The notes beneath the pieces were generated by a model that did no database searches, was not told the DNA's origin, and saw only the letters and a program-made list of their open reading frames with translations. Source: Planctomycetota bacterium (lineage in GTDB: Bacteria > Planctomycetota > Uabimicrobiia > Uabimicrobiales > Uabimicrobiaceae). From it: DNA of 64,000 bases. This document shows, in pieces, positions 25,004 through 63,262 of this stretch (its first letter is position 1; each line of letters opens with the position of its first letter). Both the position numbers and the translations under genes were made by a program. The stretch is taken from the NCBI GenBank assembly GCA_029260735.1, contig JAJDCR010000020.1, forward strand, positions 62,001-126,000. Direction: 5' to 3'.

Positions 25004-27442
25004 ATGAATCCCCAAGAAAAAAAAATTCTCCAACTAGCTGTTTCCTTTAAATTCCTTACTGAGCAACAAATTAAAGATGCTGTTATCCAGCAACAAAACC
25101 TAGCTCAACGAGGACAACAAATCTCTATTCTCCAAATAGTCGGGCAATTACTGAACCAGCAACAAAAAGAATTTCTCCAGCAAAAATTGCAAGTCCAAAC
25201 GATTGAATTATCGGAAGATTCTCTTCTGGATAGTTCTGAGAATTCTTCTTTAGATCGCTATGAAACGACAAAAGAGTTTGAGCTTCCCAAGGAATTTGGT
25301 CGCTATGAAATTATCCGCGAACTGGGTAAAGGGAATATGGGAAGAGTGTTTTTAGTGAAAGATGCTCAAAAAACAAAGCCGATTGCCTTAAAAGTAATGC
25401 TTGCAGGAGTGATGGCCGACTCAATGAGCGAAGATCGTTTTCTCCGAGAAATAGATTCGATGAAAGAGTTGGATCACCCTAATATTATCAAAATCTATGA
25501 AGCGGGGCAGCAGGCGGGAGTGAACTATTTTACGATGGAGTATATAGAGGGGACACCTCTTCATGAAACCATCAGCAATAAAAAATTAGGTTCCCGCCGA
25601 GCGGCAGAAATTGCTTCCCAAGTTGCTCGTGCTATCCACTATGCTCATACCAAAAATATTATTCACCGTGATATTAAGCCTTCTAATATTGTACTTAAGG
25701 GAAAAAAACCTATTGTGATGGATTTTGGTTTAGCTCGTAAAATCCAAGGCGGTAGTAAACTTACCCGAACAGGGTCTATTTTGGGAACACCTTCTTACAT
25801 GGCACCAGAGCAAACCACGGGAAAAAACTCTGCCATAGATGAAAGAACAGACGTTTATGCGATTGGAGCAACTCTCTATGAACTTCTGACGAAGAAAGTC
25901 CCCTTTCCTGGCTCTGACCCTTTAAGCGTTTTAATGAAGGTTGTACGTAACCCTGTTCCATCTCCCCGTTCCATAAACCCATTAATTCCCCAAGATTTAG
26001 AAAACATTTGTTTAAAAGCTTTGGAGAAGAAAAAAGAAAATCGCTACCAAAGCGCTTTAGAGATGGCAGAAAGCCTGGAGAACTTTATCGAAGGAGTTGC
26101 GGTAGAATCAGGATCTAAAGGTGTTAGTTCTTCTAGAGGAGTTCGTTCTTGGTTAGAACAAAATAAAATTATCTTAGTGATGTTTTTTTCTTTCATATGT
26201 TTACTGATTTTTCCCTCTCTATGGGCTTTGGAAAGAATCCAAGATGCCGAAAAGGTGGGAAGAGAAAACGTGGAATTAACTCAAAAAAGTAACAAACAAA
26301 AAAGCAACTATGAAAAGCTAAAAGAGGAGAATAATCAAAATAGACGAGATATTGTTCTTTTAAAGGAACTAGTCTCTTTTGTTAGCGAAGAAAATACTGA
26401 AAGCGTTGTAGAAATAGAGGAACAACTCCAAAACATTTGGAGCACAGGAGAAAATGTTAAGGCGAAAACCGAAGCCATCATGGTGGAGTTAGTTAGAATA
26501 ACAAAGCAAGAAAAGTTCATTTTTCAAGAAAGGTACGGATCTCTCTCTCTTCCTACTCCTACTCCTCCCTTAAAAATATCCTTGCTTGAAATAGAGACTT
26601 TGCTTTTAGAAAGTTTTCAAGAAACTAGTCTTTCCGAAAAATCTCTTGTCTTAGAAAAGGCTTTTTTTAGATGCAATCAAGCTATTGATAAAGGCAAAGA
26701 AAAACCAAACCCTTCCCTTTTCTATTCACTTTATTTACTTGTTCATAGGATGGGGATGGAGTACTCTCATGACTGTTTTTTTCCCCTTAAACCATTTACC
26801 ATTAGCCAACGCTTGGAAGAAGTCTTAGATACTTTAGATTTTTCCGAAAAAATACAATACCTCCGATACAAAGAAGCTTTTCATCAGAATACTCTTGCTT
26901 TTAAACAACCTGGAAACGAAGGAAAAGAAAAATCGGAGAAGCTACAAAGAGACAGCCTGAAAACGCTTGGCCGAATCTCAGGAAAAAAATCAATACCAGC
27001 TCAGCTTTTAGAAGCGTACCTTCTCTACAGGCATGCTGAAGATTATAAAAAAGCTAAAACTATCTATGAATCTCTTATAAAAGAAGAAACACTTTCGCCT
27101 TTGGCACATTTTGAGTTAGGAAACATTGCTTGGCGGGAAGAGGACGACAAAAAAGGCCTAGGCCAAAAAAGAGATTATACTCGTGCCGAAAAATATTTTG
27201 AGCAGGCACTTAAAGGTAACTCAAATTTTCCAGCTTATCTTTTTCGGTATGGCCGAGCAAAAGGTAAGCAAAAGAATTTTCTTGGATCGATATCTGAGTT
27301 AAATAAAGCAAAAGAAGCTTTGGAGAAAGCCGAGCAAGAGAAAAGCTTTCAAGGACTTTATCGTCCGGAATACTCTTTAGAACAGATTGATGAGGAAATG
27401 AAAAAAATAAATTGGCTTATCCCGAGAGATTCTAATAAATAG
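25004..27442 (+). CDS. Membrane Ser/Thr protein kinase with coiled-coil/TPR-like C-terminal region
   Basis: 812 residues. Residues 1-65 form the same helical N-terminal domain seen in the kinase at 1855. The kinase domain (about 98-362) has GKGNMG (108-113), Lys130, HRDIKPSN (221-228), DFG (240-242) and APE (267-269), so it is expected to be active. One membrane helix (about 387-407) is followed by a coiled coil (VELTQKSNKQKSNYEKLKEENN). A long helical region follows whose end looks TPR-like (LAHFELGNIAWREEDD, YTRAEKYFEQALKGN). The topology puts the kinase inside and the repeats outside the membrane. The gene has its own promoter and ends before an untranslated region. Confidence 0.9.
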   Translation: MNPQEKKILQLAVSFKFLTEQQIKDAVIQQQNLAQRGQQISILQIVGQLLNQQQKEFLQQKLQVQTIELSEDSLLDSSENSSLDRYETTKEFELPKEFGRYEIIRELGKGNMGRVFLVKDAQKTKPIALKVMLAGVMADSMSEDRFLREIDSMKELDHPNIIKIYEAGQQAGVNYFTMEYIEGTPLHETISNKKLGSRRAAEIASQVARAIHYAHTKNIIHRDIKPSNIVLKGKKPIVMDFGLARKIQGGSKLTRTGSILGTPSYMAPEQTTGKNSAIDERTDVYAIGATLYELLTKKVPFPGSDPLSVLMKVVRNPVPSPRSINPLIPQDLENICLKALEKKKENRYQSALEMAESLENFIEGVAVESGSKGVSSSRGVRSWLEQNKIILVMFFSFICLLIFPSLWALERIQDAEKVGRENVELTQKSNKQKSNYEKLKEENNQNRRDIVLLKELVSFVSEENTESVVEIEEQLQNIWSTGENVKAKTEAIMVELVRITKQEKFIFQERYGSLSLPTPTPPLKISLLEIETLLLESFQETSLSEKSLVLEKAFFRCNQAIDKGKEKPNPSLFYSLYLLVHRMGMEYSHDCFFPLKPFTISQRLEEVLDTLDFSEKIQYLRYKEAFHQNTLAFKQPGNEGKEKSEKLQRDSLKTLGRISGKKSIPAQLLEAYLLYRHAEDYKKAKTIYESLIKEETLSPLAHFELGNIAWREEDDKKGLGQKRDYTRAEKYFEQALKGNSNFPAYLFRYGRAKGKQKNFLGSISELNKAKEALEKAEQEKSFQGLYRPEYSLEQIDEEMKKINWLIPRDSNK

Positions 27443-34382: not shown

Positions 34383-36677
34383 TTAAGCCTGGAGAGGCTT
34401 GGGTAGCTTGTTAGAGCTTTTTTTGACAATCAAGGCCTGGTTTTTTTTTTCGTCTTGCTTCAGTAAATTAAATATATGGCGAACTATTTTAAAAGCAGCT
34501 TGGGGCTCTCCCATAGACTTAGCTTTTACAATCATTTTGTCTATTTTCTGAGGGCTTTTTAATAAATCAGAAATATGATTTGCCAATTTCTCTGGAGAAA
34601 GCTCCTTTTCGAGAAGAACAATCGCTGCTCCTCTTCTTTCTAATTTTTGTGCATTTGCTTCTTGGTGACCATCAGCAGAGCGAGCAAAAGGTATTATGAT
34701 AGATGGTAAACCCAAAGCTGTTATTTCGGCCAAAGTACTACCACCAGCTCGACAAATCACAAAGTGGCTCTGTTTATAAAGCTCTTCAATGTTATGATGA
34801 AAAGGAAAAACATGGGCCGTAAATTCGTATTTTTGGTAGTCCTTTTGCATTTGTAGAAAATCATGTTCTCCTGTAATATGAAGAAAACGGAGATCATTGC
34901 AGACATCTTTTAGGAGAGGCAATGTTGAGCTCACCAGATTATTGATACAACCTGCTCCTTGGCTTCCTCCCATGATTAAAATAGTAAATGGTTTAGGCAA
35001 AGAAGTTTGAGGAGGCTTTAACTCTTCTCGGATAGGTACTCCCAAAGGAACAACTTTATTCCGAGCGATTTGTTCGACTAAATGAGGAGTATAAACCGCT
35101 TCACTCCAGCTAGAAAGTTTTCGAACTACCTTTCCAGGGATAGCATTGCTTTCTAAAAGAACCAAAGGAACTCCCCTCATCTTTGCTAATAAACCTGCCG
35201 AAAAGGAACCATATCCTCCTAGTCCTATTACCATATCAGGCTTTAATCGATGAAATAACTTTGCCGTTTTGATTAAGCTTGTTAAAAATCTCCAAGAAAA
35301 TTCAGGGTACTGTTTTTTACTTTGAGGAAAAGAGCGCATTGGATTTATTTCCCAAGCAAAATCATTTTTCTTCATAACAGCTAAATCGACAGGTTTACCT
35401 GGAACTTGGAAGTAGACTTGGCTTCGAGGACTTTGTTTCTGAATTTCTTTGGCTAAACAAATACCTGGAATTAAATGTCCTCCTGTTCCTCCTCCTGCAA
35501 CAAGAAAGGTAAATTTCTTTTCTGAAGAAGTCATGACAGGAATTTCCTCTTTAGATTCTTTAGGAGTTATGTCTTGACAATTTCCTGCAATATTTAAAAG
35601 TAATCCCACTCCCATCATTGTGAAGAGTAGTCCCGTTCCCCCAAAACTGATAAAAGGTAAAGATATTCCTTTTGCTGGGACACTTTGAGTGACCACAGCG
35701 ATATTAAAAGTTGCTTGCAAACCAATCGTGAATGTAATGCCTAGAGCAAGAATTCGGGCAAAGTTATCAGGAGCATACTTTACCACTTTTAAGCCGTAGT
35801 ATAGAAGGCTAATGAATAGGACTAATATCAATGAAGTCCCTAAAAATCCTAACTCTTCCCCTACAATCGAAAAAATAAAATCGGTACTCTCTTCGCTTAG
35901 AAAAAATAGTTTTTGTTGGCTCCAACCTAAACCGACTCCAAACTTGCCGCCTGTTCCTATGGCAATCAATGATTGTCGTATTTGGTATCCCTTCCCTAAT
36001 GGATCAAGCTCTGGATTTAAGAACACATCAATTCTTTGTTTGATGTGATTAAATTTAAAAAATGCTAATATAAAAACAACGGGTAAGCTAGCGAAACAAA
36101 TCGGAACTAAATGTTGCCAACGAATACCAGCGACGAGCAACAATGTAATGGAAACAACAAAAATAAAGCAACAAGTGCCAAAGTCAGGTTCTAACAAAAT
36201 TAAAAAACAGGCCAAGGAAATTAGGCTAAAAATCGGTAAAAATCCGGCGTAAAAGTGTTTGAGCTTGTGGTGGTTGCGATGGGCATAAGTGGCTACCAGT
36301 ATCACCGCAGCTAATTTCATCATATCGGAAGGCTGTCCTCCAAAGCCAGCAAAGCGAATCCAACGACGAGCACCATTGTACTTGGTTCCAATTCCTGGAA
36401 TGAGCACTAAAGCTAAGAGAAGGAGAGTGCCTCCAAAAATCCAGTATCCATAGCGTTCCAACAAACGGTAAGGCATGTCCATGCAAGCAATCATCATCGC
36501 CATAGCTAAAAGACACCACATAACTTGCTTCTTAATAAAGAAGTAAGCATTATCGGTACTTTGATCCATTTGAGCAACAATGGCACTCGTGGAGTAAACC
36601 ATTACCAAGCCAATGGAAACGAGTATTAAGACAATGGCAAGAATAGATTTTTGTAAATACTGGGCATTGGGATTCAT
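34383..36677 (-). CDS. ftsW-murG: FtsW-MurG fusion protein
   Basis: 764 residues in one uninterrupted frame. Residues 1 to about 365 are FtsW: ten hydrophobic segments, GARRWIR, EPDFGT, YQIRQSLIAIGTGG and ISFGGTGLL are SEDS glycosyltransferase motifs. After a 15-residue linker, MurG begins at residue 382 (GGGTGGHLIPG) and continues with IGLGGYGS, MGGSQGA and CRAGGSTLAEI. It reaches a normal end. FtsW polymerises lipid II at the septum and MurG makes lipid II on the inner leaflet, so the fusion ties the two steps together. An internal ATG at 35534 has GAGGAA upstream, so free MurG might also be made. The ATG at 36677 is chosen, with AGGTAG upstream. Confidence 0.92.
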   Translation of the reverse strand: MNPNAQYLQKSILAIVLILVSIGLVMVYSTSAIVAQMDQSTDNAYFFIKKQVMWCLLAMAMMIACMDMPYRLLERYGYWIFGGTLLLLALVLIPGIGTKYNGARRWIRFAGFGGQPSDMMKLAAVILVATYAHRNHHKLKHFYAGFLPIFSLISLACFLILLEPDFGTCCFIFVVSITLLLVAGIRWQHLVPICFASLPVVFILAFFKFNHIKQRIDVFLNPELDPLGKGYQIRQSLIAIGTGGKFGVGLGWSQQKLFFLSEESTDFIFSIVGEELGFLGTSLILVLFISLLYYGLKVVKYAPDNFARILALGITFTIGLQATFNIAVVTQSVPAKGISLPFISFGGTGLLFTMMGVGLLLNIAGNCQDITPKESKEEIPVMTSSEKKFTFLVAGGGTGGHLIPGICLAKEIQKQSPRSQVYFQVPGKPVDLAVMKKNDFAWEINPMRSFPQSKKQYPEFSWRFLTSLIKTAKLFHRLKPDMVIGLGGYGSFSAGLLAKMRGVPLVLLESNAIPGKVVRKLSSWSEAVYTPHLVEQIARNKVVPLGVPIREELKPPQTSLPKPFTILIMGGSQGAGCINNLVSSTLPLLKDVCNDLRFLHITGEHDFLQMQKDYQKYEFTAHVFPFHHNIEELYKQSHFVICRAGGSTLAEITALGLPSIIIPFARSADGHQEANAQKLERRGAAIVLLEKELSPEKLANHISDLLKSPQKIDKMIVKAKSMGEPQAAFKIVRHIFNLLKQDEKKNQALIVKKSSNKLPKPLQA

Positions 36678-36684
36678 AGCCAAA

Positions 36685-37834: not shown

Positions 37835-39259
37835 TTAAGTGCTTTGGTAGCCTTTACTCAAAAAAGGAACGTCTATTTCGTTTTCTAATTCTTCTTTAAT
37901 TTCACTAATAATAGTCTCTAGTTCGATGCCACGGGATGCCTTTAGAAGGACTACATCTTCGGGACTTAAAAAGTCTTGTAAGGAAGAAAGAACTTTATGT
38001 TTACCTGGAAAACAGCGAACCTTACTTAAAGGCATTCCTGCATTTAGTGCTCCTGATGCAATTCCGTAAGCTTGTGAACCGACGACCCAAAGAGCATCTA
38101 ATGATTTTTGGGCAGCTACCTTTCCTACTTTTTCATGGAGCTCTTTGCTGTTCTCTCCCAGCTCAAGCATGGCTCCCAATATGGCAAGTTTTCTTTTTCC
38201 TGAATACTCCTCAAGAGTATCAAGGGCACTAATCATAGACTGTGGGTTTGCATTATAAGCATCATTAAGAATGCTTACAGCTCCTAGTTGTTTGACTTCC
38301 ATGCGCATAGGGGGTAGCGATAATGTTAGAAGTTGCTTTTGGATTTTCTCAATACTGACACCATGCTCCAAAGCTATAACCATTGCAACTAGTACGTTGT
38401 AAAGATTGTGCCGCCCTAGAATGGGAGCGACCCAACTTTTCTCAGCAAGCTTAAAATGTAGTTTTTCTTCTCGATACTTAATGTCTGTTGCCTGGTAGTC
38501 TGCTTTTTTCTTTATTCCGAAAGTTTTTACTCTACCGGAGAATTTTTGAGCAATTTCTCTACATCTAGGATCATCAGCATTGGTGATGAATAGTCCTCCA
38601 GGGGCAATACCTTCGATTACTTCTGCTTTTGCTTGAGAAACTCCATCTAGGTCACCAAAACCTTCCAGATGGCTTTCTGCAACACAGGTTAAAACAGCAA
38701 CCTCTGGCTGAATCAACCGAGACAAATAGCGAATTTCTCCAAAGGCGTTGGTTCCCATTTCAAAAACAGCCATCTCGTGTTTTGCCTCTAGCTTGAGAAT
38801 AGTCCAGGGCACCCCAATAAAGTTGTTAAAGCTTTTTTCTGATTTCAAAGTTTGGTATTGAGCGCTGAGTAAATGTGCCGTTATCTCTTTGCTTGTTGTT
38901 TTTCCTAAAGAGCCTGTAATTGCAATGCGAAAAGCAGGCATTTGTTCTCGGTAGAACTGCCCAATTTTTCCTAGTGCTAGCAAAGTATCTTCTACCAGAA
39001 GAAAAGGAAAATCATCAGGAAGCGACTGCTCCACTCTTGGGTCAGAGGCCAAGATAGCAGAGGCTCCTAATTCCACCGCTTTTGTGACAAAGCGATGTCC
39101 ATCCATTTTCTCTCCTTTGAGAGCAATAAAAAGGTTCCCCTGCTCTAAAGAGCGGGTATCAGAGCTAACCCCTTTAATCTCTCGGTTAGAGTAGTTTCTA
39201 TGGGTGCTTGCTTCGGTAACAAAAATAAGCTTTTCTAATGACAAAGTTAACATCTTCAC
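37835..39259 (-). CDS. murF: UDP-N-acetylmuramoyl-tripeptide--D-alanyl-D-alanine ligase
   Basis: 474 residues. GVSSDTRSLEQGNLFIAL is the N-terminal substrate domain, TGSLGKTTSKE the ATP loop, FEMGTNAFGEIRYL the MurF-specific metal region, and LNDAYNANPQSM is diagnostic for MurF. It adds D-Ala-D-Ala to the UDP-MurNAc tripeptide. The GTG at 39259 overlaps the murE stop (GTGA); an ATG two codons later is an alternative, with AGGAA serving either. Confidence 0.94.
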   Translation of the reverse strand: MKMLTLSLEKLIFVTEASTHRNYSNREIKGVSSDTRSLEQGNLFIALKGEKMDGHRFVTKAVELGASAILASDPRVEQSLPDDFPFLLVEDTLLALGKIGQFYREQMPAFRIAITGSLGKTTSKEITAHLLSAQYQTLKSEKSFNNFIGVPWTILKLEAKHEMAVFEMGTNAFGEIRYLSRLIQPEVAVLTCVAESHLEGFGDLDGVSQAKAEVIEGIAPGGLFITNADDPRCREIAQKFSGRVKTFGIKKKADYQATDIKYREEKLHFKLAEKSWVAPILGRHNLYNVLVAMVIALEHGVSIEKIQKQLLTLSLPPMRMEVKQLGAVSILNDAYNANPQSMISALDTLEEYSGKRKLAILGAMLELGENSKELHEKVGKVAAQKSLDALWVVGSQAYGIASGALNAGMPLSKVRCFPGKHKVLSSLQDFLSPEDVVLLKASRGIELETIISEIKEELENEIDVPFLSKGYQST

Positions 39260-40788
39260 ACTTTTCCTAAAGGGGATAATCTTGCCTGTCGTTTCTTTTT
39301 GAGAGATGTTCGAGCAACCTCACGATCATCAAAAGGTTTTGTGATGTCGCCAATAATCTGTCCTGTTTCATGTCCCTTGCCAGCGATTAAAACAGTATCT
39401 CCTGGTTGAGCTTCACGGATTGCTTTTTCAATGGCCTCTTCTCTGTCTAGACAAAGAGAATACTTTTGCTTAGAGGAAAAAGCAGAAGCAATTTTTTCGG
39501 CGATGTCTCGAGGATTTTCTTGACGAGGATTATCATTTGTAATCCAGCAAAAATCACTTTTTTCATTTGCGACCCTTCCCATTTGTGCTCTTTTTTCTTG
39601 GTCTCGGTTACCTCCGCAACCAAAAACTAAAAGAAGTCGATGAGGGCTAACTTGACGCAAACTAAGAAGTACTTTCTCTAAGGCATCTGCTGTATGAGCA
39701 AAGTCTACGATAACACGAAACTCTTGTCCCTCTTCAATACTCTCCATTCTTCCTGGTATCTGGGTTAATCTTTCGATACCAGTTTTGATTTTGTCTAAAG
39801 AGATTCCCTCAGACAAGGCGCAAGCTGCTGCTGCTAAGCAATTCTCAATATTATGTTCTCCTGGCAAAGAGCAGATAATTTCTGTGCTTCCCATAGGGGT
39901 ATCTAAATCAAAAATATATTTTTGATCCAAAATTCGAATATTGATAGCTCGAATATCTGCTTTAGCCCAACCTTCTCTTGATTCAACCCCATAGAACAAT
40001 TTTCCTGCGAGGGTTTGACTAGAGAAATAGTTGGCGACAGGGTCACAAGCATTTATAACAGCAGTTCCCTGACTAGATAGGGAATGAAATAGTTTTGCTT
40101 TCGTATTGCGATAAGACTCAAAGGTTTTATGATAATCAAGATGCTCGTGGCTCATATTCGTTAAAATAGCTGTATTAAACTCAATGCCGTCTGTTCTATG
40201 TTGAGCCAGTGCATGAGAAGATACTTCCATGACTAAGTCAGTTACACCATCCTCGACCATTTGGGCCATATAATTGTGTAAAGTAACCGGATCTGGGGTT
40301 GTTAGACTAGCAGGGATTTCTCGTCCGTTGTATTCGTAAGCAATTGTCCCCATTAATCCAGATGTTTTTTCTGCAGCATTCCAAATGGAGCGTAGATAGT
40401 AGCTTGTAGTTGTTTTCCCATTAGTTCCGGTAACTCCTACCATATTGAGTTTCTCAGCCGGATTGTGAAAGAGCAATGCCATTAATTGGCTTAAGGTCAA
40501 GCGAGCATTTTCTGTAATTCCCAGAACCTGTTTAGTTATTTCAACGGGTATTTTTTCTGTTATGATCGCTTTTGCTCCCCGAGCAATAGCATCTTTCATA
40601 TACCTAGCTTCGCGCTGAAGATCCCGAGTTTGTCCAAAATGACAACCGCAAACAGAGACGTAAAGACCACCAGGTTCAATTTTCCGAGAGTCAAAATGAA
40701 TATTAGAAATATTCAAGTTTCGGAAGTTGTGCCACTGAATTCCCGTGAAATGATTTCGTATTCTTTCGAGAGAAAGTGTTGGTATCAT
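39256..40788 (-). CDS. murE: UDP-N-acetylmuramoyl-L-alanyl-D-glutamate ligase for the third amino acid
   Basis: 510 residues. The N-terminal domain contains HFDSRKIEPGGLYVSV. TGTNGKTTTSYYL is the ATP loop, LTNMSHEHLDYH supplies metal and carbamoyl-region residues, and VDFAHTADALEKVL the central domain. DNPRQENPRDI is the stretch where meso-diaminopimelate-adding enzymes usually read DNPRxExP. This pattern favours diaminopimelate over lysine, giving a DAP-type peptidoglycan. It overlaps ftsI and murF by four bases each. Confidence 0.94.
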   Translation of the reverse strand: MIPTLSLERIRNHFTGIQWHNFRNLNISNIHFDSRKIEPGGLYVSVCGCHFGQTRDLQREARYMKDAIARGAKAIITEKIPVEITKQVLGITENARLTLSQLMALLFHNPAEKLNMVGVTGTNGKTTTSYYLRSIWNAAEKTSGLMGTIAYEYNGREIPASLTTPDPVTLHNYMAQMVEDGVTDLVMEVSSHALAQHRTDGIEFNTAILTNMSHEHLDYHKTFESYRNTKAKLFHSLSSQGTAVINACDPVANYFSSQTLAGKLFYGVESREGWAKADIRAINIRILDQKYIFDLDTPMGSTEIICSLPGEHNIENCLAAAACALSEGISLDKIKTGIERLTQIPGRMESIEEGQEFRVIVDFAHTADALEKVLLSLRQVSPHRLLLVFGCGGNRDQEKRAQMGRVANEKSDFCWITNDNPRQENPRDIAEKIASAFSSKQKYSLCLDREEAIEKAIREAQPGDTVLIAGKGHETGQIIGDITKPFDDREVARTSLKKKRQARLSPLGKV

Positions 40789-42485
40789 GGTCGTCCCCCT
40801 TTGATCAATACAGCCTGTCGCAAAATTTCAGCTACATAAGGAGCGGCTACAACACCGCCATAGGAAGATCCTACAGGTTCATCAACTGTAATAATACAGC
40901 AGTACATGGGTTTATAGTAAGGAGCAAACCCTACAAAAGATGCTACATGTTTGGAATGCGAGTACCTTCCGTCGACTATTTTTTGAGCTGTTCCCGTTTT
41001 ACCTCCGACGAAAGCACCTTTAATGTTAGCTCTTTTGGCAGTGCCTCTAACGACAACTTCTCGTAGAATGTTTCTCATTTCTTTGACAACATGCATCGGA
41101 AAAATTCTTACTAGGTTAGGAGGAAGATAGCGATGTTGTTCTTTTCCATCAGGATAGACAATTTTGCGAACGATATAAGGAGGACGATAGATGCCGTCTC
41201 CAACCAAAGTTGTAAAGGCTGAGACCAACTGCAAAGGAGTCATACTAATCTCGTGCCCCATTGGAATCGAAAGCATGGTGCTGGGAGTCCAATATTTGTG
41301 ATTTTTTAGGATTCCACTGGATTCTCCTGGAAGATAGATTTTACTTTTATTCCCTAATCCCAAGTGTTGAAGGTAAGTATGAAGTTTTTTTGCTCCGAAC
41401 ATTTCTCCTAGTTGAGCTGCTCCGATATTACTAGAGTAAATCAGAATTTCTGCCACCGTTAAATCTCCATAACGATGATGATCGTGTAAAGTTCGGCCTT
41501 TGATTCGGTAAGCTCCGTTATGGCAATTAATAATGGTTTTAGAGTGAACTAAGTTCTCTCCCATACAAGCTCCCGCAACAAGGGGCTTAACCACTGATCC
41601 TAGCTCATAAGAGTCGGTTATGGCGATATTACGCCAAGAGTTTTGGGGAGATTTTTGATAATGGTTAGAATCAAAGTTAGGTCGGGAAGTCATGGCTAAA
41701 ACTTCCCCTGTTTTAACAGATAATAAAATTGCAGATGCTTTTTTCGGGCGAAATTTTTCTACGGCTTTTTCCAGTTGTTGTTCTGCAATTTCTTGGAGTT
41801 CATAGTCCAAAGTAAGATAAATATCTGCTCCATTGACCGGAGGTATGCCAGGGGCTTCTGATCGATAAATGGCATAACGAGCTAGGCGTCCATCCACTAA
41901 TTGCCAAGTGTAGCCTGGTTGCCCTGAAAGCTCTTTTTGGAAGTTTGCTTCGATCCCTTCTAAACCTTTGTTTTCTAAACCAACAAAGCCTAAAACGTGA
42001 GCAGCAAATTTTCCTCCTGGATAGGCTCTTCTTGATTCTTTGCGAAATCCTATTCCACGAATGTCCAAAGCTTTAACTTTTTCGTATTGCTCTTCTGCTA
42101 ACTGGCGTTTAAGCCAAATGAATTTTCGATTTTTTCTTTTTAGTCGCGAAGACAAAAATGCACTTTTTTTGTCTAAAAGTAGGCTGAGTTGTTCGGCAAC
42201 TTCTTCTGGATTTTCAACTGCTTGAGGATTAGCGTAGCAAGAATAACCAGGAACAGAGATAGCAAGAATATTACCTTGTCTATCTTTGATGGTTCCTCGG
42301 TGGTTGGGCAAAATTTTCTTTTTCCACTGTTGCCCAAAGGCTTTCTTTTGATAATAGTCATGTTGGTGACATTGTAACCAATAAAGACGACCGATTAAGG
42401 CTAGCATACAAAACATTAAGACCCCTAGAGCTATGGGAGCTTTTTGTTGGATACTTTTTTCAAAAGTGTCTTCTGCGTAGGTCAT
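40785..42485 (-). CDS. ftsI: Septal peptidoglycan transpeptidase (PBP3/FtsI family)
   Basis: A 566-residue class B penicillin-binding protein. One membrane helix (about 18-36) is followed by the dimerisation domain (KDRQGNILAIS) and the transpeptidase domain with SVVK (nucleophile Ser297), YSSN and GGKTGTAQK. The sequence ends without PASTA domains. It cross-links septal peptidoglycan together with FtsW. The ATG at 42485 is eight bases after the ftsL-like stop, and the 3' end overlaps murE by four bases. SPMGHEISMTPLQL-type spacing before KTG is also typical. Confidence 0.93.
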   Translation of the reverse strand: MTYAEDTFEKSIQQKAPIALGVLMFCMLALIGRLYWLQCHQHDYYQKKAFGQQWKKKILPNHRGTIKDRQGNILAISVPGYSCYANPQAVENPEEVAEQLSLLLDKKSAFLSSRLKRKNRKFIWLKRQLAEEQYEKVKALDIRGIGFRKESRRAYPGGKFAAHVLGFVGLENKGLEGIEANFQKELSGQPGYTWQLVDGRLARYAIYRSEAPGIPPVNGADIYLTLDYELQEIAEQQLEKAVEKFRPKKASAILLSVKTGEVLAMTSRPNFDSNHYQKSPQNSWRNIAITDSYELGSVVKPLVAGACMGENLVHSKTIINCHNGAYRIKGRTLHDHHRYGDLTVAEILIYSSNIGAAQLGEMFGAKKLHTYLQHLGLGNKSKIYLPGESSGILKNHKYWTPSTMLSIPMGHEISMTPLQLVSAFTTLVGDGIYRPPYIVRKIVYPDGKEQHRYLPPNLVRIFPMHVVKEMRNILREVVVRGTAKRANIKGAFVGGKTGTAQKIVDGRYSHSKHVASFVGFAPYYKPMYCCIITVDEPVGSSYGGVVAAPYVAEILRQAVLIKGGRP

Positions 42486-55357: not shown

Positions 55358-56422
55358 ATGCCATACATACATAGCGTATCTTGCGCTTTTCCCAAAAACT
55401 ACTATGACCAAGAAAGTCTTCTCCAAGAGCTGCGAAAGTATTGGAAAAAGAAATACTTTAATGTGGATCGAATCGAAGCTTTTCATCGTAATGTCTTAGT
55501 TGGAGGCCGTCATCTTGCTTTGCCTTTAGAGGAATACGGAAAACTCTCTGGCTTTGGAGATAGAAATGATGCTTGGATCAGAGTTGCTTTGGAAGTTGCC
55601 ACAGAAGCGGTTTCTAAGCTCTTAGAAAAAAGTCAAATTTCTCCCCAAGAGATCGAACTTTTAGCAAGTGCCACAGTTACGGGCTTAGCAGTACCTAGCT
55701 TAGAGGCACGCTTAATGAATAAGATTCCTTTTTCTCGCAAGACCAAGCGTTTACCTATATTCGGCTTAGGTTGCTTAGCAGGAGCAGCCGGAATTAATAG
55801 GGTAGCAGACTATTTAAAAGGGCATCCCAAAGCGGCTGCCATTTTTTTTAGCGTTGAACTCTGTTCTCTCACGATTCAGTTTGAAGATCTCAGCATTCAA
55901 AACATCATCTCTACAGGCTTATTTGGGGATGGAGGAGCCGCTGTCCTTGTGGTAGGGGATGAACATTCTTTGGCTGGGGAATCTCCCTTAGAGCTTCTTT
56001 CGTGGCAATCGGCTTTTTTCCCCGAGACCGAACGAGTGATGGGTTGGGATATTGTGGACAGTGGATTTAAAGTGGTTCTTAGTAAAAGTGTTCCTGAAAT
56101 TGTCGCTGAGGAAATGCCTAAAGAAGTTAGCGAACTTCTTCAGCAATCAGAATTAAAAAATAAGTTACTCCAATTTTTTATTGCCCATCCTGGTGGCCCA
56201 AAAGTTCTCGAAAGCATGGAAAAAGTGTTTTCCCTCGAAAAGGGTGAGCTTAAATATAGCTGGGAAAGCTTGGCTAGCCATGGCAATATGAGCTCCGTTT
56301 CTGTTCTCTTTGTTTTGGCAAAAACTTTAGAGAATCTTCCCCCACGTGATTCCCTTGGCCTAATTAGTGCTATGGGACCAGCTTTTTGCGCAGAGTTAGG
56401 TTTATTACGATGTTCTTACTAA
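55358..56422 (+). CDS. Type III polyketide synthase (chalcone synthase/BpsA-like)
   Basis: A 354-residue thiolase-fold synthase with the type III triad: Cys139 in GLGCLAGAAGI, His277 in AHPGGPKVLE and Asn310 in SHGNMSSVSV. GFGDRNDAW and AVPSLEARLMN are family features. It extends a fatty acyl starter with malonyl-CoA to make alkylpyrones or alkylresorcinols. It starts two bases after the SpoIID-like gene and leads an operon with an ICMT-like methyltransferase, an acyl carrier protein, a fatty acyl-AMP ligase and an FAD oxidoreductase. The starter is probably a long-chain acyl group delivered on the carrier protein; the exact product cannot be read from sequence. Confidence 0.88.
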   Translation: MPYIHSVSCAFPKNYYDQESLLQELRKYWKKKYFNVDRIEAFHRNVLVGGRHLALPLEEYGKLSGFGDRNDAWIRVALEVATEAVSKLLEKSQISPQEIELLASATVTGLAVPSLEARLMNKIPFSRKTKRLPIFGLGCLAGAAGINRVADYLKGHPKAAAIFFSVELCSLTIQFEDLSIQNIISTGLFGDGGAAVLVVGDEHSLAGESPLELLSWQSAFFPETERVMGWDIVDSGFKVVLSKSVPEIVAEEMPKEVSELLQQSELKNKLLQFFIAHPGGPKVLESMEKVFSLEKGELKYSWESLASHGNMSSVSVLFVLAKTLENLPPRDSLGLISAMGPAFCAELGLLRCSY

Positions 56423-56997
56423 AAATATCTGATTTTAATTCTTTCCCCGTTTATTTAGTTCTCGTCATACTAATTGCCATACAGCGTCTTTTTGAAATTA
56501 AGCGTTCTCGAAAAAACGAAGCTAAGCTTAAGGCAAGAGGAGGAATGGAATTAAGTTCCGGGCACTTTACTTACATGCGACTTCTTCATATATTTTGGCT
56601 TTGGGCCTGTATTTTAGAAGCGTACTTGAGACAAACTCCTCCCCTTTGGTATATCTCTTTGGGCGCTTTTGCTGCTCTTTTGCTCGGGCAAATCTTTCGT
56701 TTGGCTGCGATTCACACCTTAAAAGAAAGATGGACAGTACGTATTATTGTTCTAGAGGGAGAGGCTCCTGTTACTACAGGAATCTATCGTTACCTCCGTC
56801 ACCCTAACTATTTAGGAGTCATCATAGAGATAGCAGCTCTTCCTCTCATTTTTGGTTGTTGGTGGACAGCAAGTGTTTTTAGTGTCCTCAATGGCATTAT
56901 TTTATATACTCGCATTGGAGCCGAAGAAAAAGCCCTTAGCTCTACGAGCAACTACGAAGAAAGATTTGAAGACAAAAAACGCTTTTTCCTTTTTTAG
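56410..56997 (+). CDS. Isoprenylcysteine carboxyl methyltransferase family membrane protein (BpsB-like)
   Basis: About 195 residues with four to five membrane helices. The C-terminal SAM-binding signature GIYRYLRHPNYLGVIIE and later EEKAL are those of ICMT/phospholipid methyltransferase proteins. In Bacillus the neighbour of BpsA, BpsB, has this fold and O-methylates alkylpyrones; here it overlaps the type III PKS by 13 bases. That pairing supports methylation of the PKS product in the membrane. The ATG at 56410 is chosen because the longer reading lies within the PKS gene. Confidence 0.82.
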   Translation: MFLLKISDFNSFPVYLVLVILIAIQRLFEIKRSRKNEAKLKARGGMELSSGHFTYMRLLHIFWLWACILEAYLRQTPPLWYISLGAFAALLLGQIFRLAAIHTLKERWTVRIIVLEGEAPVTTGIYRYLRHPNYLGVIIEIAALPLIFGCWWTASVFSVLNGIILYTRIGAEEKALSSTSNYEERFEDKKRFFLF

Positions 56998-57034
56998 ATG
57001 CCTGTTATAAAAACTTTAGATACCAAGAAAAACT

Positions 57035-57304
57035 ATGGACATAGACAAAACAACTATCTACCAAACAGTGAGTCAAATCCTTCATGAGGATTGTCATATC
57101 CCTCACGAAACCATTACCTTAGAATCTCGTTTACAAGAAGATCTTGGGTTAGACAGTGTGGGCCTAATGACCTTGGCTTTAGAAATTGAAAACCATTGGG
57201 AGTTGATCTTAGAAGAATCTTCCGAAAGTCCTCCTGAAACAGTAAGTCAAATTATTGACCTTATTTCGATTCGCTTGCAAGAACAAAAAGAAAGAGAATC
57301 TTAG
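57035..57304 (+). CDS. Acyl carrier protein
   Basis: An 89-residue helical protein. LGLDSVGLM carries Ser41, the phosphopantetheine attachment site. The surrounding helices (LQEDLGLDSVGLMTLALEIE) and acidic character are typical. It is too divergent to be the housekeeping AcpP and sits directly before a fatty acyl-AMP ligase (no gap), which normally loads such a dedicated carrier. It probably supplies the acyl starter to the type III synthase. Confidence 0.85.
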   Translation: MDIDKTTIYQTVSQILHEDCHIPHETITLESRLQEDLGLDSVGLMTLALEIENHWELILEESSESPPETVSQIIDLISIRLQEQKERES

Positions 57305-59071
57305 ATGGTAAACTCTCTTGGGGAACTTCTTGAACAAGCAGCCGAAAAAAATGTAGCCCAAGTTCATTTTTGGCATAATGCCAAAAAAATCGAAACGATT
57401 AGCTATCCAGAAATATTAGAGAGATCTCTTCTTATAACAGGCGCTTTACAAAAGCAAGGTGTTGAGCCTGGTGATAGGGTGGCCTTAGTTCTCCCTACTC
57501 ATCCAGAGTTTTATTACGCTTTTTTTGGAATTATTTTAGCCGGGGCTATCCCCGCAGCATTATACCCTCCTGTTCGTTTAGGCAAAGTAGGTGAATGGAA
57601 GCTTAGAACTAGCCGTATGCTAAAGGCTCTTTCTGCTCGCCTGGTGTTGACCAATACTAGTCTTTTGGGGATGATGGGGGAGCCTGTTCGAGAAGCTTCT
57701 CCTCGTTTTGGTTGTAAAACAGTAAAAAAACTACTTCAGCAGAATGACAAAGGAAAGTACATTCCGAAAAAAAAAGAAGACACTGTTGTTGTGCAGTTTA
57801 GCTCAGGAACAACTGGTCACCCCAAACCCATTGCTCTAAGTCATGAAAACATTTTAAGTAACGCCTCAGCTATCTTAGCAAGCTTTCCTGGTGAAGTTTC
57901 TGGGCATAGTGGAGTTAGTTGGCTTCCCCTCTACCATGATATGGGGTTGGTCGGGTGTATGATTAGTGCAATTATGGTCATGGGAGACCTGACCTTGATT
58001 CGACCAGAGCAGTTTGTCGCTCGGCCCAGAATCTGGCTAGAGGCCCTTAGTCATACCAAAGCAACGATTTCAGTTGCCCCGAACTTTGCCTTCGGACTTT
58101 GTAACAATCGAATTTCCGAAAAAGAGCTGAGTGGTTTAGATTTAAGTTCTTGGAAAATTGCTCTTTGTGGAGCGGAAGCGGTTCATCCTGATACTCTGGA
58201 AACCTTTGCCCAAAAATTTTCCTCGGTCGGTTTTGAGAAAAAGGCTCTTACTCCAGTTTATGGATTGGCCGAAGCAACCTTAGCAGTATCTTTTTCTCCG
58301 ACCGAAGAGCCCCCTCTCTATACTTTATTCCATCGCGAAAAGATGGAACAAGAAGGAAAAGCCGTAATTGATGAGAAAAATGGAGTTTCTTTGGCCTCAG
58401 TAGGGGCACCTCTTGTCGGAGTCGAAATTGAAATTAGAGACGAAGAAGGAAAGATACTACCTTTAGGAACAGTAGGCCGTGTTTGTTGCCGAGGGAAAAG
58501 TGTCTTCAAAGAGTATTTGGATTTACCAGAAGAAACTCTTCAGGCTAAACCCGAAGGATGGCTTGATACTGGAGATAGAGGTTTCATCTTCGAAGGAAAC
58601 CTTTATCTTTGTGGGCGCTATAAAGACGTAATTATTTTACGAGGAAGAAATTACGATCCTGCCCAAGTAGAGCAAGCGCTAGAAGGTATTCAAGGATTGC
58701 GCTCTGGGTGTGTTGCTGCTTTTGGAGTGACGGACTCAAAAACAGGTACGGAAAAATTAGTTTTGCTCAGTGAGTACAAAGAACCCCTCCATAAAAAAGA
58801 AGACATGGAGGCAGAAATCAAAGCTCAAGTTCTCGTTCATTGCAATCTTCAGGTAGCTGAACTGGAACTATTGGTTCCTGGAACTTTACCTCGCACTTCC
58901 TCTGGGAAAATTCGCCGCGGAGAAGCACGTCGTCTTTGGTTAGCAGGTGATCTTGAAGCCCCTGTAAAAGCAGGCGTCGCAACTTTTGCTCGCCACACTC
59001 TTACGGGAATGTGGAGTCATTACCAAGCAAAGCAAGAACAAGAAAACCTCCCTGTAAATGACGACAAATAG
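57305..59071 (+). CDS. Fatty acyl-AMP ligase (FAAL)
   Basis: A 588-residue ANL-superfamily enzyme. VVQFSSGTTGHPKPIALSH is the ATP loop, SWLPLYHDMGLVG and the long YGLAEATLAVSF region are FAAL-typical, GWLDTGDRGFI and LCGRYKDVIILRGRNYDP form the hinge, and LPRTSSGKIRR holds the late Lys. FAALs form acyl-adenylates and pass them to a carrier protein rather than to CoA; the acyl carrier protein is encoded immediately upstream. It would activate the fatty acid starter for the polyketide. An FAAL rather than a CoA ligase is supported by motif style and context, not by measurement. Confidence 0.85.
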   Translation: MVNSLGELLEQAAEKNVAQVHFWHNAKKIETISYPEILERSLLITGALQKQGVEPGDRVALVLPTHPEFYYAFFGIILAGAIPAALYPPVRLGKVGEWKLRTSRMLKALSARLVLTNTSLLGMMGEPVREASPRFGCKTVKKLLQQNDKGKYIPKKKEDTVVVQFSSGTTGHPKPIALSHENILSNASAILASFPGEVSGHSGVSWLPLYHDMGLVGCMISAIMVMGDLTLIRPEQFVARPRIWLEALSHTKATISVAPNFAFGLCNNRISEKELSGLDLSSWKIALCGAEAVHPDTLETFAQKFSSVGFEKKALTPVYGLAEATLAVSFSPTEEPPLYTLFHREKMEQEGKAVIDEKNGVSLASVGAPLVGVEIEIRDEEGKILPLGTVGRVCCRGKSVFKEYLDLPEETLQAKPEGWLDTGDRGFIFEGNLYLCGRYKDVIILRGRNYDPAQVEQALEGIQGLRSGCVAAFGVTDSKTGTEKLVLLSEYKEPLHKKEDMEAEIKAQVLVHCNLQVAELELLVPGTLPRTSSGKIRRGEARRLWLAGDLEAPVKAGVATFARHTLTGMWSHYQAKQEQENLPVNDDK

Positions 59072-59079
59072 GTGAATCT

Positions 59080-60279
59080 ATGAATTTGCCTATCGCCATT
59101 ATCGGAGGTGGGCCTACTGGTTTAGCAACTGCTATTGCCTTAGCCCAAAAAGAAATCCCTGTGGTTGTTTTTGAAAAAAATACTTGGCCACAAGACAAGG
59201 TTTGCGGAGAAGGCTTAATGCCAAGCGGCGTTGAGTTCCTGAAGAAATGGGGAGTTTTTCCTTACTTGTCAAAAGAGATGATGCGACCTTTTCAAGGAAT
59301 CTACTACCGCGACCCACTAGGGATCATAGCTCAAGGAAAATTTAAGGAAGGTCCTGGGCTGGGTATTCGGCGCACGAATCTTAGTCAAGCTCTATGGCTA
59401 AAGGCCCAAGAAGAAAAAAGAATTGAGCTTAGAGAAGAAACCCAATTTATCCGTTTCACTTTGTTAGAAAAATCCATTCAAGTAACAAGCCAAAAACAAA
59501 ACGAGTTGAAAGAAGAAAAATTCTCACTTCTTATCGGTGCCGATGGCCTACGTTCTCAAGTTCGAAAGCAAGCTAATTTAGAAGCTGCTTCACCGGGAAA
59601 ACAAAAGAGATGGGGAGCCCGCCAGCATTTCGCTATTTCTCCTTGGAATGATCATGTCGAAATTTGGTGGGAGAGAGGCATTGAGGCTTATATTACTCCT
59701 TCGGGAGAAAAACAAGTAGAAGTAGCTTTTCTTTGGGATCGAGAACAGTTTCGTCCCATCAAAGCAAAGGGAATCGAAGGTTTTTTGCCTTTTTTTCCAG
59801 GTTTAGCTCAGCGCCTAGAGAAAGCACAGGCTCTCTCTGCATTTCGAGGGATTGGCCCGCTAGCCGTAGCTGCTGACAAACCCACAGCGCAGAGAATTCT
59901 CTTAATAGGTGACGCATTTACCTATTTAGACGGTATTACCGGGGAGGGAATTTCTATTGGTTTTGCCCAAGCGCAAATCTTAGCAGAAAAACTCCCCTCT
60001 CTCTGGAAAGAAAATAAACTGAATAATCCAGACCTTTTTTCTTTAGGTAAACAAATCCAAGAAAAAACTCGAACATACCTAACCATGACTCACTTAGCCT
60101 TAGTTTTAACACGCTATCCCTTCTTGCGCACCCAAGTGATCAAAGCCCTTTCTCGCTCTCCTCTATTTTTTCAGCATTTTCTAGAGGTCAATATGGGCAA
60201 ACGCCCTTTATGGAAAATTCCCCTCAGGGCTATCCCCCAACTCATCTGGGGTTTAGTCGATCCTCGTCGTTTTTCTTAA
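59080..60279 (+). CDS. FAD-dependent oxidoreductase (geranylgeranyl reductase/monooxygenase type)
   Basis: A 399-residue flavoprotein. GGGPTGLATAIALAQ binds FAD, VVVFEKNTWPQDKVCGEGLMPSG is the second motif that places it with geranylgeranyl reductase- and halogenase-like monooxygenases, and LLIGDAFTYLDGITGEGIS is the late FAD-ribityl motif. Enzymes of this type often follow type III PKS genes and hydroxylate or reduce the alkyl-aromatic product. AGGTGA lies just before the ATG. The reaction here is inferred. It is the last clear enzyme of the operon. Confidence 0.8.
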   Translation: MNLPIAIIGGGPTGLATAIALAQKEIPVVVFEKNTWPQDKVCGEGLMPSGVEFLKKWGVFPYLSKEMMRPFQGIYYRDPLGIIAQGKFKEGPGLGIRRTNLSQALWLKAQEEKRIELREETQFIRFTLLEKSIQVTSQKQNELKEEKFSLLIGADGLRSQVRKQANLEAASPGKQKRWGARQHFAISPWNDHVEIWWERGIEAYITPSGEKQVEVAFLWDREQFRPIKAKGIEGFLPFFPGLAQRLEKAQALSAFRGIGPLAVAADKPTAQRILLIGDAFTYLDGITGEGISIGFAQAQILAEKLPSLWKENKLNNPDLFSLGKQIQEKTRTYLTMTHLALVLTRYPFLRTQVIKALSRSPLFFQHFLEVNMGKRPLWKIPLRAIPQLIWGLVDPRRFS

Positions 60280-60369
60280 GAATCTATTTCTTTCTTCCAC
60301 GGCATTTGTTTATAATAAGCCCAAAAATTATGCTTAGAAAAATTAGAGAAAAAGGATATCAGACAAGAA

Positions 60370-61950
60370 ATGCTCGATCAAGAACACAATCTACCACAAA
60401 ACCAACTGATTGGAGAAGGTAGATCTGGACAGGTATTTTCCTCTTACGACGAAGAGGGGAGGCATCTTGCCAACAAAGTATTTGTAGGAGAAACTCTTGC
60501 CAAGCTAGTTACTTACATTCTTTCCGGAGCTCCCCAAGGCTATATTTGGAATAGAGATGCTATTTCCTGTGCCCACCATCGAAGAAGAATACTCGCTCTT
60601 TTAGTCGAGTATTGGTTTCCCGAGAAACTTCGCGTAGCACAATCTTATGGAGTAGCCTGGAATGAAGAATTTTTAGGCTTTGAGCTTCATACTCGGTTTG
60701 TCGAAGGACGCTATGCTAAACTAACAAATCCTTTTTCAGGGGAAGGAAAAAAAGAGTTTAAAGAGCTTGTTCACTCCATTATGGAACCTATCCAAGGGAA
60801 ACTCTTAGAGTCAGGTTTTGATGGATTGGTTTGGCAAGCAGGTTATGGCAATCCTGTTGCCGCCAATAACTTTCTCTTGGAATACAAAGAAGATGGCCAA
60901 AGAGTTTGGCATTGGATTGATTTAGAGTCAGGGGTTCCTGCCCTTTTTCCGATCAATCCACTCAAGCTTTTAACCTTCTATCTTCCCAAATCATTTGAGC
61001 ATAAAAGAGCTCTTTTTGACGATGTCAACACCTCGAAGCTTGAGAATTATTTTCAAGAACATCGTAGTGCTTTAGAGGAACAGTTTGGTTCTGCAGCGAT
61101 CAAAGAATTTGAAGTGGACTTAGAAAGACTAGCTCATCACCAAAAAGAGTGGAAGTCTCTCTCGCGAGTTCAAGGAGCTATCCGCTATAACGAAGCCAAG
61201 CAAAAAATAACCACTGAACAAGCCGACTGGTACATCCGCCATCCTCTACTCTGGTATTTACGAGAGTCCAGTCGCATGCTTGTACAGGGAACAAAAAAAG
61301 TTATAACCGAAGCCATCCCTAAAATAATATCCGCTATCCTCCGAATTAAGTACTTAGACTCCCTTAAAACAACGGTTAAGCTTATCATTTCTTCCGATTT
61401 TCGCATCAAAAAAACGAAAGAATATACCTTTAATCGAATCCAAGAGTGGGGACAACGACAACAGCTTAGTCCCGAAGAAAAAGGGAAGCTCGAAGATCAG
61501 CTAGACCACATCGGAGAAAAATCCTATCTCATGGATTTTGGGGTTCATATAACGCTGTGGCCCCTTGTAAAATTACTCCAATACTTTATCTTTCCCTCTC
61601 TTTATGCCATGGGTTTAGTCAATGGCTACTTTGTCCTTTTTTGCTTAGTATTTGCCGGATCTATCTCACGTACTCTCTATACTTTAGGGAAAATTATTTT
61701 CGGGAAAGGCCCTGAAAAGCCTTGGCTTGCCCTTATTGTCGGGATGATCCCCAAGGCCGGAAATGGAGCTTACCTCTTACAAATGCTTTATAGTGCGAGC
61801 AAGAATAAAGAAATTGCTAAGTTTCTTTGGTATGACTTGTTCTCTAAAGTCGGAGCCTCGTTTCCCATTTGGGGAGGGGAAGATACCCAAACCGAACATT
61901 TTTTTAACTGGCTGGCCCACTGGCTGGTGCGAAGGCAAGAGACCGAGTAA
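60370..61950 (+). CDS. Kinase-fold-like membrane protein, unknown function
   Basis: A 526-residue protein. The N-terminal third looks like a divergent protein- or sugar-kinase fold: IGEGRSGQVFSSYD resembles a glycine-rich loop, LANKVF a VAIK-type strand, GNPVAANNFLLEY a catalytic loop with Asn, and WHWIDLESGVPA a DFG-like metal site. The usual HRD is missing. A helical middle part leads to two or three membrane helices (FGVHITLWPLVKLLQYFIF, GLVNGYFVLFCLVFAGSI). It lies 90 bp after the FAD enzyme on the same strand. It may phosphorylate a lipid or glycoside, or be a pseudokinase; I cannot tell which. Confidence 0.6.
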   Translation: MLDQEHNLPQNQLIGEGRSGQVFSSYDEEGRHLANKVFVGETLAKLVTYILSGAPQGYIWNRDAISCAHHRRRILALLVEYWFPEKLRVAQSYGVAWNEEFLGFELHTRFVEGRYAKLTNPFSGEGKKEFKELVHSIMEPIQGKLLESGFDGLVWQAGYGNPVAANNFLLEYKEDGQRVWHWIDLESGVPALFPINPLKLLTFYLPKSFEHKRALFDDVNTSKLENYFQEHRSALEEQFGSAAIKEFEVDLERLAHHQKEWKSLSRVQGAIRYNEAKQKITTEQADWYIRHPLLWYLRESSRMLVQGTKKVITEAIPKIISAILRIKYLDSLKTTVKLIISSDFRIKKTKEYTFNRIQEWGQRQQLSPEEKGKLEDQLDHIGEKSYLMDFGVHITLWPLVKLLQYFIFPSLYAMGLVNGYFVLFCLVFAGSISRTLYTLGKIIFGKGPEKPWLALIVGMIPKAGNGAYLLQMLYSASKNKEIAKFLWYDLFSKVGASFPIWGGEDTQTEHFFNWLAHWLVRRQETE

Positions 61951-62056: not shown

Positions 62057-63262
62057 ATGTCTTCTGATTTATTAGATTTTGTTTGTCCTCACTGCCAACG
62101 TATTATTAAGATAAAAAAAGAATCCAATCCTATAGGAAAAAAAATATCTTGTAAAGGGTGTCAGCAGGTTTTCTCTCTGGAAAAAAAATATCTGCTCTAT
62201 CCCGAAACAAAAACCCCTATCCTCGATACCTTAATCTTTATTTGTTCTCACTGTGCAAGAGAGGCTAAGGTTGCTGCTCAGAGTGGATTGTTTGGGAAAA
62301 AAATGAAGTGTAAGGGATGCCAAGAAGTTTTTGTTTTAGATCAAAATAGTCAAAAAGATTTTTCTCCCTCTCCCGAAGAAAAAACAGCAATAGAGTCTCC
62401 CACCCAAAAAGGAGCAATCGGAGAGAAAGAAGAAATGGTTGAGGAGAAAGAGGATCTCTTTGAATTTGGAGGATACAAGGTATTAGAAAGACTTGGAAAA
62501 GGAGGAATGGGAGAAGTTTTTCGAGCTTTTGACGCCCACCTGCAAATAGAAGTGGCTTTAAAAATGTTAATTTTGGATCTAGAAGAAAACTCAGACTGCT
62601 CAACACGCTTTCTACGAGAAGCTAAAGTCTGCTCAAGGTTAGACCACCCTAACATTGTTAAATTCTATGATGTGGGATGTATGGACGAAAAGTATTATTT
62701 TACCATGGAATTAATCGAAGGAACCTCTTTTGATCAAGTAATCAAATCTCTTTCCTTAAAAGAGTCTTTGAGAATATTAATCCAAACAGCTCATGCTATT
62801 GCTCATTCTCACGAGCTAGGAATTCTCCATCGCGATCTTAAGCCTAGTAACATTATGCTAACAAAAGATAATCAAGCTAAGGTTATGGATTTCGGATTAG
62901 CTAAGCTAGTCAATGAAGCTTCTGGCTTAACCGAAACAGGCACTATTCTAGGAACTTTTGACTACATGTCACCTGAGCAAGTCAAAGGGAAGTCAAAAAT
63001 TTTAGATTCTCTCAGTGATGTTTACTCTTTGGGAATAATTCTCTACGAAATTTTAGTTGGAGAAACTCCTTTCAAAGGAAAAACCTACATCCAAAAAATG
63101 CTCCAAATCGTTCGAACTCCCGCAATACCACCTTGCGAAATTAAGCAAGAAATCCCTCAAGCCCTTTCTGATATTTGCTTAAAAGCGATTGCTAAGGAGA
63201 AAGAAGACCGCTACTGCACAGCGACAGATTTTGCTTTAGCACTGGAGCCGTTTGTTCAATGA
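62057..63262 (+). CDS. Soluble Ser/Thr protein kinase with two N-terminal zinc ribbons
   Basis: 401 residues without a membrane helix. Two ribbons start the protein: C10/C13 with C32/C35, and C63/C66 with C85/C88, the second a near copy of the first. A charged linker leads to a complete kinase domain (about 138-400) with GKGGMG (147-152), Lys169, HRDLKPSN (258-265), DFG (278-280) and SPE (306-308). It should be active in the cytosol; the ribbons probably recruit a partner or sense metal/redox state. AAGGAAAA precedes the ATG. The last seven bases overlap the end of the convergent WD40 gene. Confidence 0.9.
   Translation: MSSDLLDFVCPHCQRIIKIKKESNPIGKKISCKGCQQVFSLEKKYLLYPETKTPILDTLIFICSHCAREAKVAAQSGLFGKKMKCKGCQEVFVLDQNSQKDFSPSPEEKTAIESPTQKGAIGEKEEMVEEKEDLFEFGGYKVLERLGKGGMGEVFRAFDAHLQIEVALKMLILDLEENSDCSTRFLREAKVCSRLDHPNIVKFYDVGCMDEKYYFTMELIEGTSFDQVIKSLSLKESLRILIQTAHAIAHSHELGILHRDLKPSNIMLTKDNQAKVMDFGLAKLVNEASGLTETGTILGTFDYMSPEQVKGKSKILDSLSDVYSLGIILYEILVGETPFKGKTYIQKMLQIVRTPAIPPCEIKQEIPQALSDICLKAIAKEKEDRYCTATDFALALEPFVQ

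Follow-up and report, generated by a model that had tools for sequence, protein, structure and literature searches.

The involvement of a fatty acyl-AMP ligase (FAAL) in a type III polyketide synthase (PKS) pathway is known from Myxococcus xanthus FtpA (Hayashi et al. 2011, as cited in PMC10896814 and PMC8460268). FtpA forms alkylresorcylic acid, and PMC11837247 lists in vitro data for C18:0. The products of FtpA and of SrsA are oxidized to alkylquinones according to PMC10896814. In the bacterium Mor1, a cluster encoding a stilbene synthase, a methyltransferase, an AMP-dependent synthetase and a monooxygenase is reported to show high identity to the M. xanthus pathway and to share its ORF organization (PMC5006271). 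In planctomycetes, a three-gene operon of methyltransferase, oxidoreductase and PKS makes alkylresorcinols, and a planctomycetal version with FAAL and acyl carrier protein (ACP) is not described in the consulted text of that source (PMC10896814). In the cylindrocyclophane pathway the FAAL CylA loads a free fatty acid on the ACP CylB, and the type III PKS CylI ends the pathway; type I PKS machinery operates between ACP and CylI (PMC11837247).

The window, i.e. the whole analyzed stretch of 64,000 nucleotides from a Planctomycetota bacterium, contains a five-gene block (55358-60279) followed by a sixth gene:

55358-56422, + strand: type III PKS, 354 amino acids (Chal_sti_synt_C, 69 bits; catalytic triad and Trp230)
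56410-56997, + strand: ICMT/PEMT-type membrane methyltransferase (PF04140 (ICMT), 98 bits)
57035-57304, + strand: stand-alone ACP, 89 amino acids (PP-binding, 31 bits; serine motif GLDSVG)
57305-59071, + strand: FAAL, 588 amino acids (AMP-binding, 202 bits; FAAL-type insertion between YGLAE and SVGAPL)
59080-60279, + strand: FAD-dependent oxidoreductase/monooxygenase of the UbiH / geranylgeranyl-reductase group, 399 amino acids (FAD_binding_3, 61 bits)
60370-61950, + strand: kinase-fold-like protein (KLP), 526 amino acids (kinase-like N-terminal domain in the AlphaFold model; a neighbor and not a general pathway member)

Gene identity and gene order were observed directly: as claimed in the preliminary description, the five genes of the block lie contiguously on the + strand, and each enzyme scored above its curated Pfam threshold. 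The same description had called the genes overlapping, which holds for PKS and methyltransferase only. These two share 13 bases when the methyltransferase starts at the likelier ATG 56410, or 37 bases with the TTG 56386 given in the ORF list. Elsewhere the genes are separated by 37 (methyltransferase to ACP), 0 (ACP to FAAL) and 8 bases (FAAL to FAD oxidoreductase). Upstream, a gene with a SpoIID/LytB domain ends 1 base before the PKS; transcription of the operon may therefore start further upstream. The KLP gene begins 90 bases downstream of the FAD oxidoreductase. Promoter and terminator scans of the region gave values near those of shuffled sequence, and consequently the operon boundaries are not readable from these scans.

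The block shares with the M. xanthus FtpA and Mor1 systems a type III PKS that is clustered with its own FAAL, a methyltransferase and a monooxygenase. Four features of an FtpA-type system are found in the window: a PKS with the catalytic triad, an adjacent FAAL, an adjacent stand-alone ACP with its serine, and both a methyltransferase and an FAD monooxygenase. M. xanthus belongs to a phylum other than that of the window, and the likeness is drawn from the published description and from related clusters. The planctomycetal mtr-fdo-t3pks operon and cyanobacterial hidABC also use a methyltransferase, an FAD oxidoreductase and a type III PKS to make alkylresorcinols, but differ in having the order methyltransferase-oxidoreductase-PKS and, as far as PMC10896814 describes them, neither FAAL nor ACP. 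In the window block the PKS is the first gene and not the last as in the hidABC-type order. Streptomyces griseus srsABC and the mycobacterial polyketide quinone operons resemble the block in using PKS, methyltransferase and hydroxylase, there for the formation of alkylquinones. srsABC is not known to include a FAAL or an ACP. At the M. montefiorense locus (L058) only PKS, ICMT and FAD oxidoreductase were found, without FAAL or ACP.

Judged from its sequence, the block is very probably an FtpA-type, FAAL/ACP-primed operon for a type III polyketide lipid. The FAAL would adenylate a free long-chain fatty acid and load it onto the phosphopantetheine of the ACP encoded in the operon, from which the acyl chain would pass to Cys139 of the PKS. 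The PKS would then add three malonyl units to the chain, with methylmalonyl possibly taking the place of at least one of them, and ring closure would yield an alkylresorcinol or alkylresorcylic acid. Genes of the methylmalonyl-CoA mutase family are encoded in the genome. Subsequently, the membrane-bound ICMT-like enzyme would methylate the PKS product and the FAD enzyme would hydroxylate the ring, giving a methylated alkylresorcinol which might end as a membrane alkyl-benzoquinone. Each of these reaction steps is predicted, as are the chain length, the methylation site and the quinone end point.

The key residues of the PKS were observed in the sequence. Motif positions identify Cys139-His277-Asn310 as the catalytic triad, and Trp230 is located in VMGWDIV, the MGWD motif. 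The protein shares 67% identity with its counterpart in the sister genome (G001). Among solved structures, PKS11 of Mycobacterium tuberculosis and CylI, from cylindrocyclophane synthesis, match it best. CylI differs in carrying Leu (MGLD) at the position of Trp230. The best NCBIfam model would label the enzyme DpgA (dihydroxyphenylacetyl-CoA synthase); this label was rejected, since the score of 157 bits is far under the cut-off of 425. Tryptophan at the MGWD position, which is also Trp230 in MMAR_2474, is reported to be essential in ArsB for the formation of resorcinols and is conserved in FtpA, SrsA, PKS10, PKS11 and MMAR_2474 (PMC5916927). Because this resorcinol-associated residue is present in the PKS, an alkylpyrone is less likely than a product of the resorcinol type. 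Trp230 is supportive and not decisive, since PKS11, annotated as a pyrone synthase, has the same tryptophan. The same enzymes might thus release an alkylpyrone by lactonization, with methylation to follow, similar to systems of the PKS11 or BpsA/BpsB kind: this annotated alpha-pyrone synthase is the nearest solved structure, and the residue is compatible with pyrones. We consider this outcome unlikely, given that the Trp position is reportedly required for resorcinol formation in ArsB and kept in FtpA, SrsA, PKS10 and MMAR_2474 (PMC5916927), that a ring-hydroxylating enzyme is best explained by an aromatic substrate, and that the product of FtpA is an alkylresorcylic acid. On the basis of these residues and precedents we favor an alkylresorcinol or alkylresorcylic acid, methylated and perhaps oxidized to a quinone, over a simple alkylpyrone. 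Where an alkylpyrone or an alkylresorcinol had originally been proposed, the methylated and oxidized phenolic lipid is retained, and the alkylpyrone has become less likely in view of the MGWD tryptophan and the FtpA precedent.

The ligase was compared with solved structures and with NCBIfam models. FAALs, led by E. coli FAAL 3PBK, outranked every acyl-CoA ligase among its solved relatives, and the identity of an acyl-CoA ligase was consequently rejected for 57305-59071. The best NCBIfam model is "fatty acyl-AMP ligase" with 432 bits, which is below the model's cut-off of 600. The region from YGLAE to SVGAPL, which we take to be the place of the extra segment of FAALs, comprises 46 residues and aligns to EcFAAL 3PBK with short gaps only. 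The FAAL-type insertion has been described (PMC8460268, PMC11837247). The attachment serine of the ACP lies in LGLDSVGL, and its DS motif was present in all matched ACPs. Two phosphopantetheinyl transferases of the ACPS type are encoded in the genome and are candidates for the production of holo-ACP.

Conservation of the block as a unit was observed among 43 PKS relatives from named genome contigs, a set whose retrieval is biased to relatives close to the query PKS. The complete five-gene set in the window's order on one strand was present at 12 of the 43. At a further locus (L037) all five genes are present, but methyltransferase and oxidoreductase are divergent. The check for conserved gene order proposed in the preliminary description was carried out with a positive result: when the sister genome is included, 13 of the 14 other complete clusters keep the window's gene order on one strand. 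Complete clusters occur in Myxococcota, Planctomycetota, Spirochaetota (Leptospirales), Acidobacteriota, Vulcanimicrobiota and unclassified bacteria. Distances between pairs of clusters are correlated among the five proteins (Mantel r 0.64-0.87, p 0.001-0.002, with shared species history left in the test), as would be expected if the five genes move as a unit. Species history alone is an unlikely cause of this correlation, because the PKS tree mixes phyla.

FAAL and ACP might nevertheless serve another acyl-transfer pathway and merely adjoin a PKS that uses acyl-CoA. Characterized relatives of the PKS accept acyl-CoA in vitro (PMC5916927), and ACP and FAAL were not found near many close PKS relatives (e.g. 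L039, L040, L045 and L051); therefore, this type of PKS does not need delivery by an ACP. Among 392 sampled genomes of the phylum, PKS matches with E values up to 1e-20 were obtained in 134, 18 of them above 280 bits, and ACP and FAAL adjoin the PKS in 4 of these 18 (the window's genome G000, G001, G048 and G068). Neither ACP nor FAAL was present at the 11 lower-scoring PKS loci of the phylum that were examined. Against a separate FAAL/ACP pathway stand the FtpA precedent and the identical order PKS-methyltransferase-ACP-FAAL-FAD oxidoreductase across phyla with correlated divergence, and we regard it as very unlikely. The dedicated starter supply by FAAL and ACP that had been suggested for this locus is thus supported by a unit conserved across phyla, by the correlated divergence, by the FAAL-type insertion and by FtpA. 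The idea of a FAAL-fed type III PKS is well supported and was already known from FtpA; the window presents the FtpA kind in a new lineage.

Variants of the cluster were seen in Bacteriovoracaceae. At four loci (L039, L040, L043 and L050), with a PKS of the window's clade, an FAD oxidoreductase precedes PKS and methyltransferase, and no ACP or FAAL was found. A fifth locus of this family (L054) contains both ACP and FAAL.

In a quick tree of PKS proteins, those of the window and of the sister genome fall into a fully supported set of 14 together with Myxococcota, Bdellovibrionota and one row from Planctomycetota (L037). The nearest rows outside the window's family belong to Myxococcota and Bdellovibrionota. 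The type III PKSs of 11 other loci of the phylum in the tree are placed in a different clade, and this separation suggests that the operon was acquired from outside the phylum.

The surrounding clade (L031-L054) is rich in Myxococcota and Bdellovibrionota, both of which have many predatory members, like 'Ca. Uabimicrobium'; this may be coincidence. The window's family apparently has a relative in 'Ca. Uabimicrobium', which engulfs bacteria and reportedly encodes 610 putative kinases (PMC11032199). A first look yielded 283 protein kinase candidates in the window's genome and 640 in the sister genome, with up to 131 scored, and these large numbers would fit a relative of this organism. The window itself contains Ser/Thr kinases at 1855-4620, 25004-27442 and 62057-63262, of which one is a fusion with an FGE-sulfatase domain and one has an MJ0042-type zinc ribbon in front of it. 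The presence of several such kinases agrees with a large expansion of kinases in the family. Elsewhere in the window, an ORF of 766 residues (34383-36683, - strand) combines an FtsW/RodA/SpoVE domain (residues 13-366) with both glycosyltransferase 28 domains of the MurG type (residues 393-729). This apparent FtsW-MurG fusion is surrounded by a peptidoglycan gene cluster with a Mur ligase (40788 being the end of the gene starting at 39256) and a penicillin-binding protein (40785-42485).

The KLP encoded downstream of the block gave no match in Pfam (ABC1 included), in NCBIfam or in a sequence search against solved structures. Its AlphaFold model (mean pLDDT 82.8) shows kinase topology in the N-terminal part; after it comes a helical region containing a single strongly hydrophobic segment (residues 406-440). 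The top Foldseek matches include Rio2, the ABC1-like Rv3197 and COQ8A/ADCK3, all weak, with E about 1e-3 and TM about 0.2 on the whole query. Lys36, Asn167 and Asp184 are invariant in the family alignment. Active protein-kinase-like enzymes, UbiB/ADCK included, carry Asp five residues before the metal-binding Asn, together with a DFG-type Asp; the KLP has the invariant Pro162 at this catalytic position, and a classical kinase reaction is therefore unlikely. Model and alignment together indicate an orphan, catalytically degenerate kinase-fold family.

Of 294 genomes of the phylum, 13 encode homologues of the KLP, counting those of the window and the sister. Ten of the 11 other carriers have no match to the window's PKS, and the remaining match is weak and partial. 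No conserved neighborhood was found in 11 KLP regions; the ORFs shared among them mostly represent the same genes read in overlapping frames, or neighbors common to close relatives. The KLP was also not found nearby in any PKS cluster retrieved from named genomes. A tailoring or regulatory role in the pathway, as had been suggested for it, is not supported, as the clusters of named genomes lack it and most of its carriers lack such a PKS. If the KLP were a lineage-specific sixth member, regulating or handling the lipid like UbiB/ADCK for ubiquinone, this would be compatible with the five-enzyme operon. In both analyzed genomes of the family the KLP stays within about 1.1 kb of the cluster, though window and sister genome have no other flanking gene in common, and Rio2, Rv3197 and COQ8A/ADCK3 point in the same direction. 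However, the 11 further carriers in the phylum, 10 of them without a PKS match, the KLP regions without common neighbors, the opposite strand in the sister genome, the weak structural scores and the missing ABC1 match in Pfam make such a member improbable. Its proximity in the two genomes could be inherited and without function. Least probable is the fuller scenario, built on analogy, in which an FtpA-type operon acquired from outside was joined in the window's family by a degenerate, membrane-associated KLP that would control or handle its quinone-like lipid as UbiB/ADCK does for ubiquinone.

The five-gene block, read as an FtpA-type operon, indicates that FAAL/ACP-primed type III PKS operons, biochemically known from Myxococcus, form a stable unit widely shared among several phyla. 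Here the carrier is a planctomycete lineage, and the better-studied relatives of this lineage rely on another operon, one of three genes. In large-genomed planctomycetes, the operon of the window is a clear target in the search for a new phenolic or quinone lipid of the membrane.
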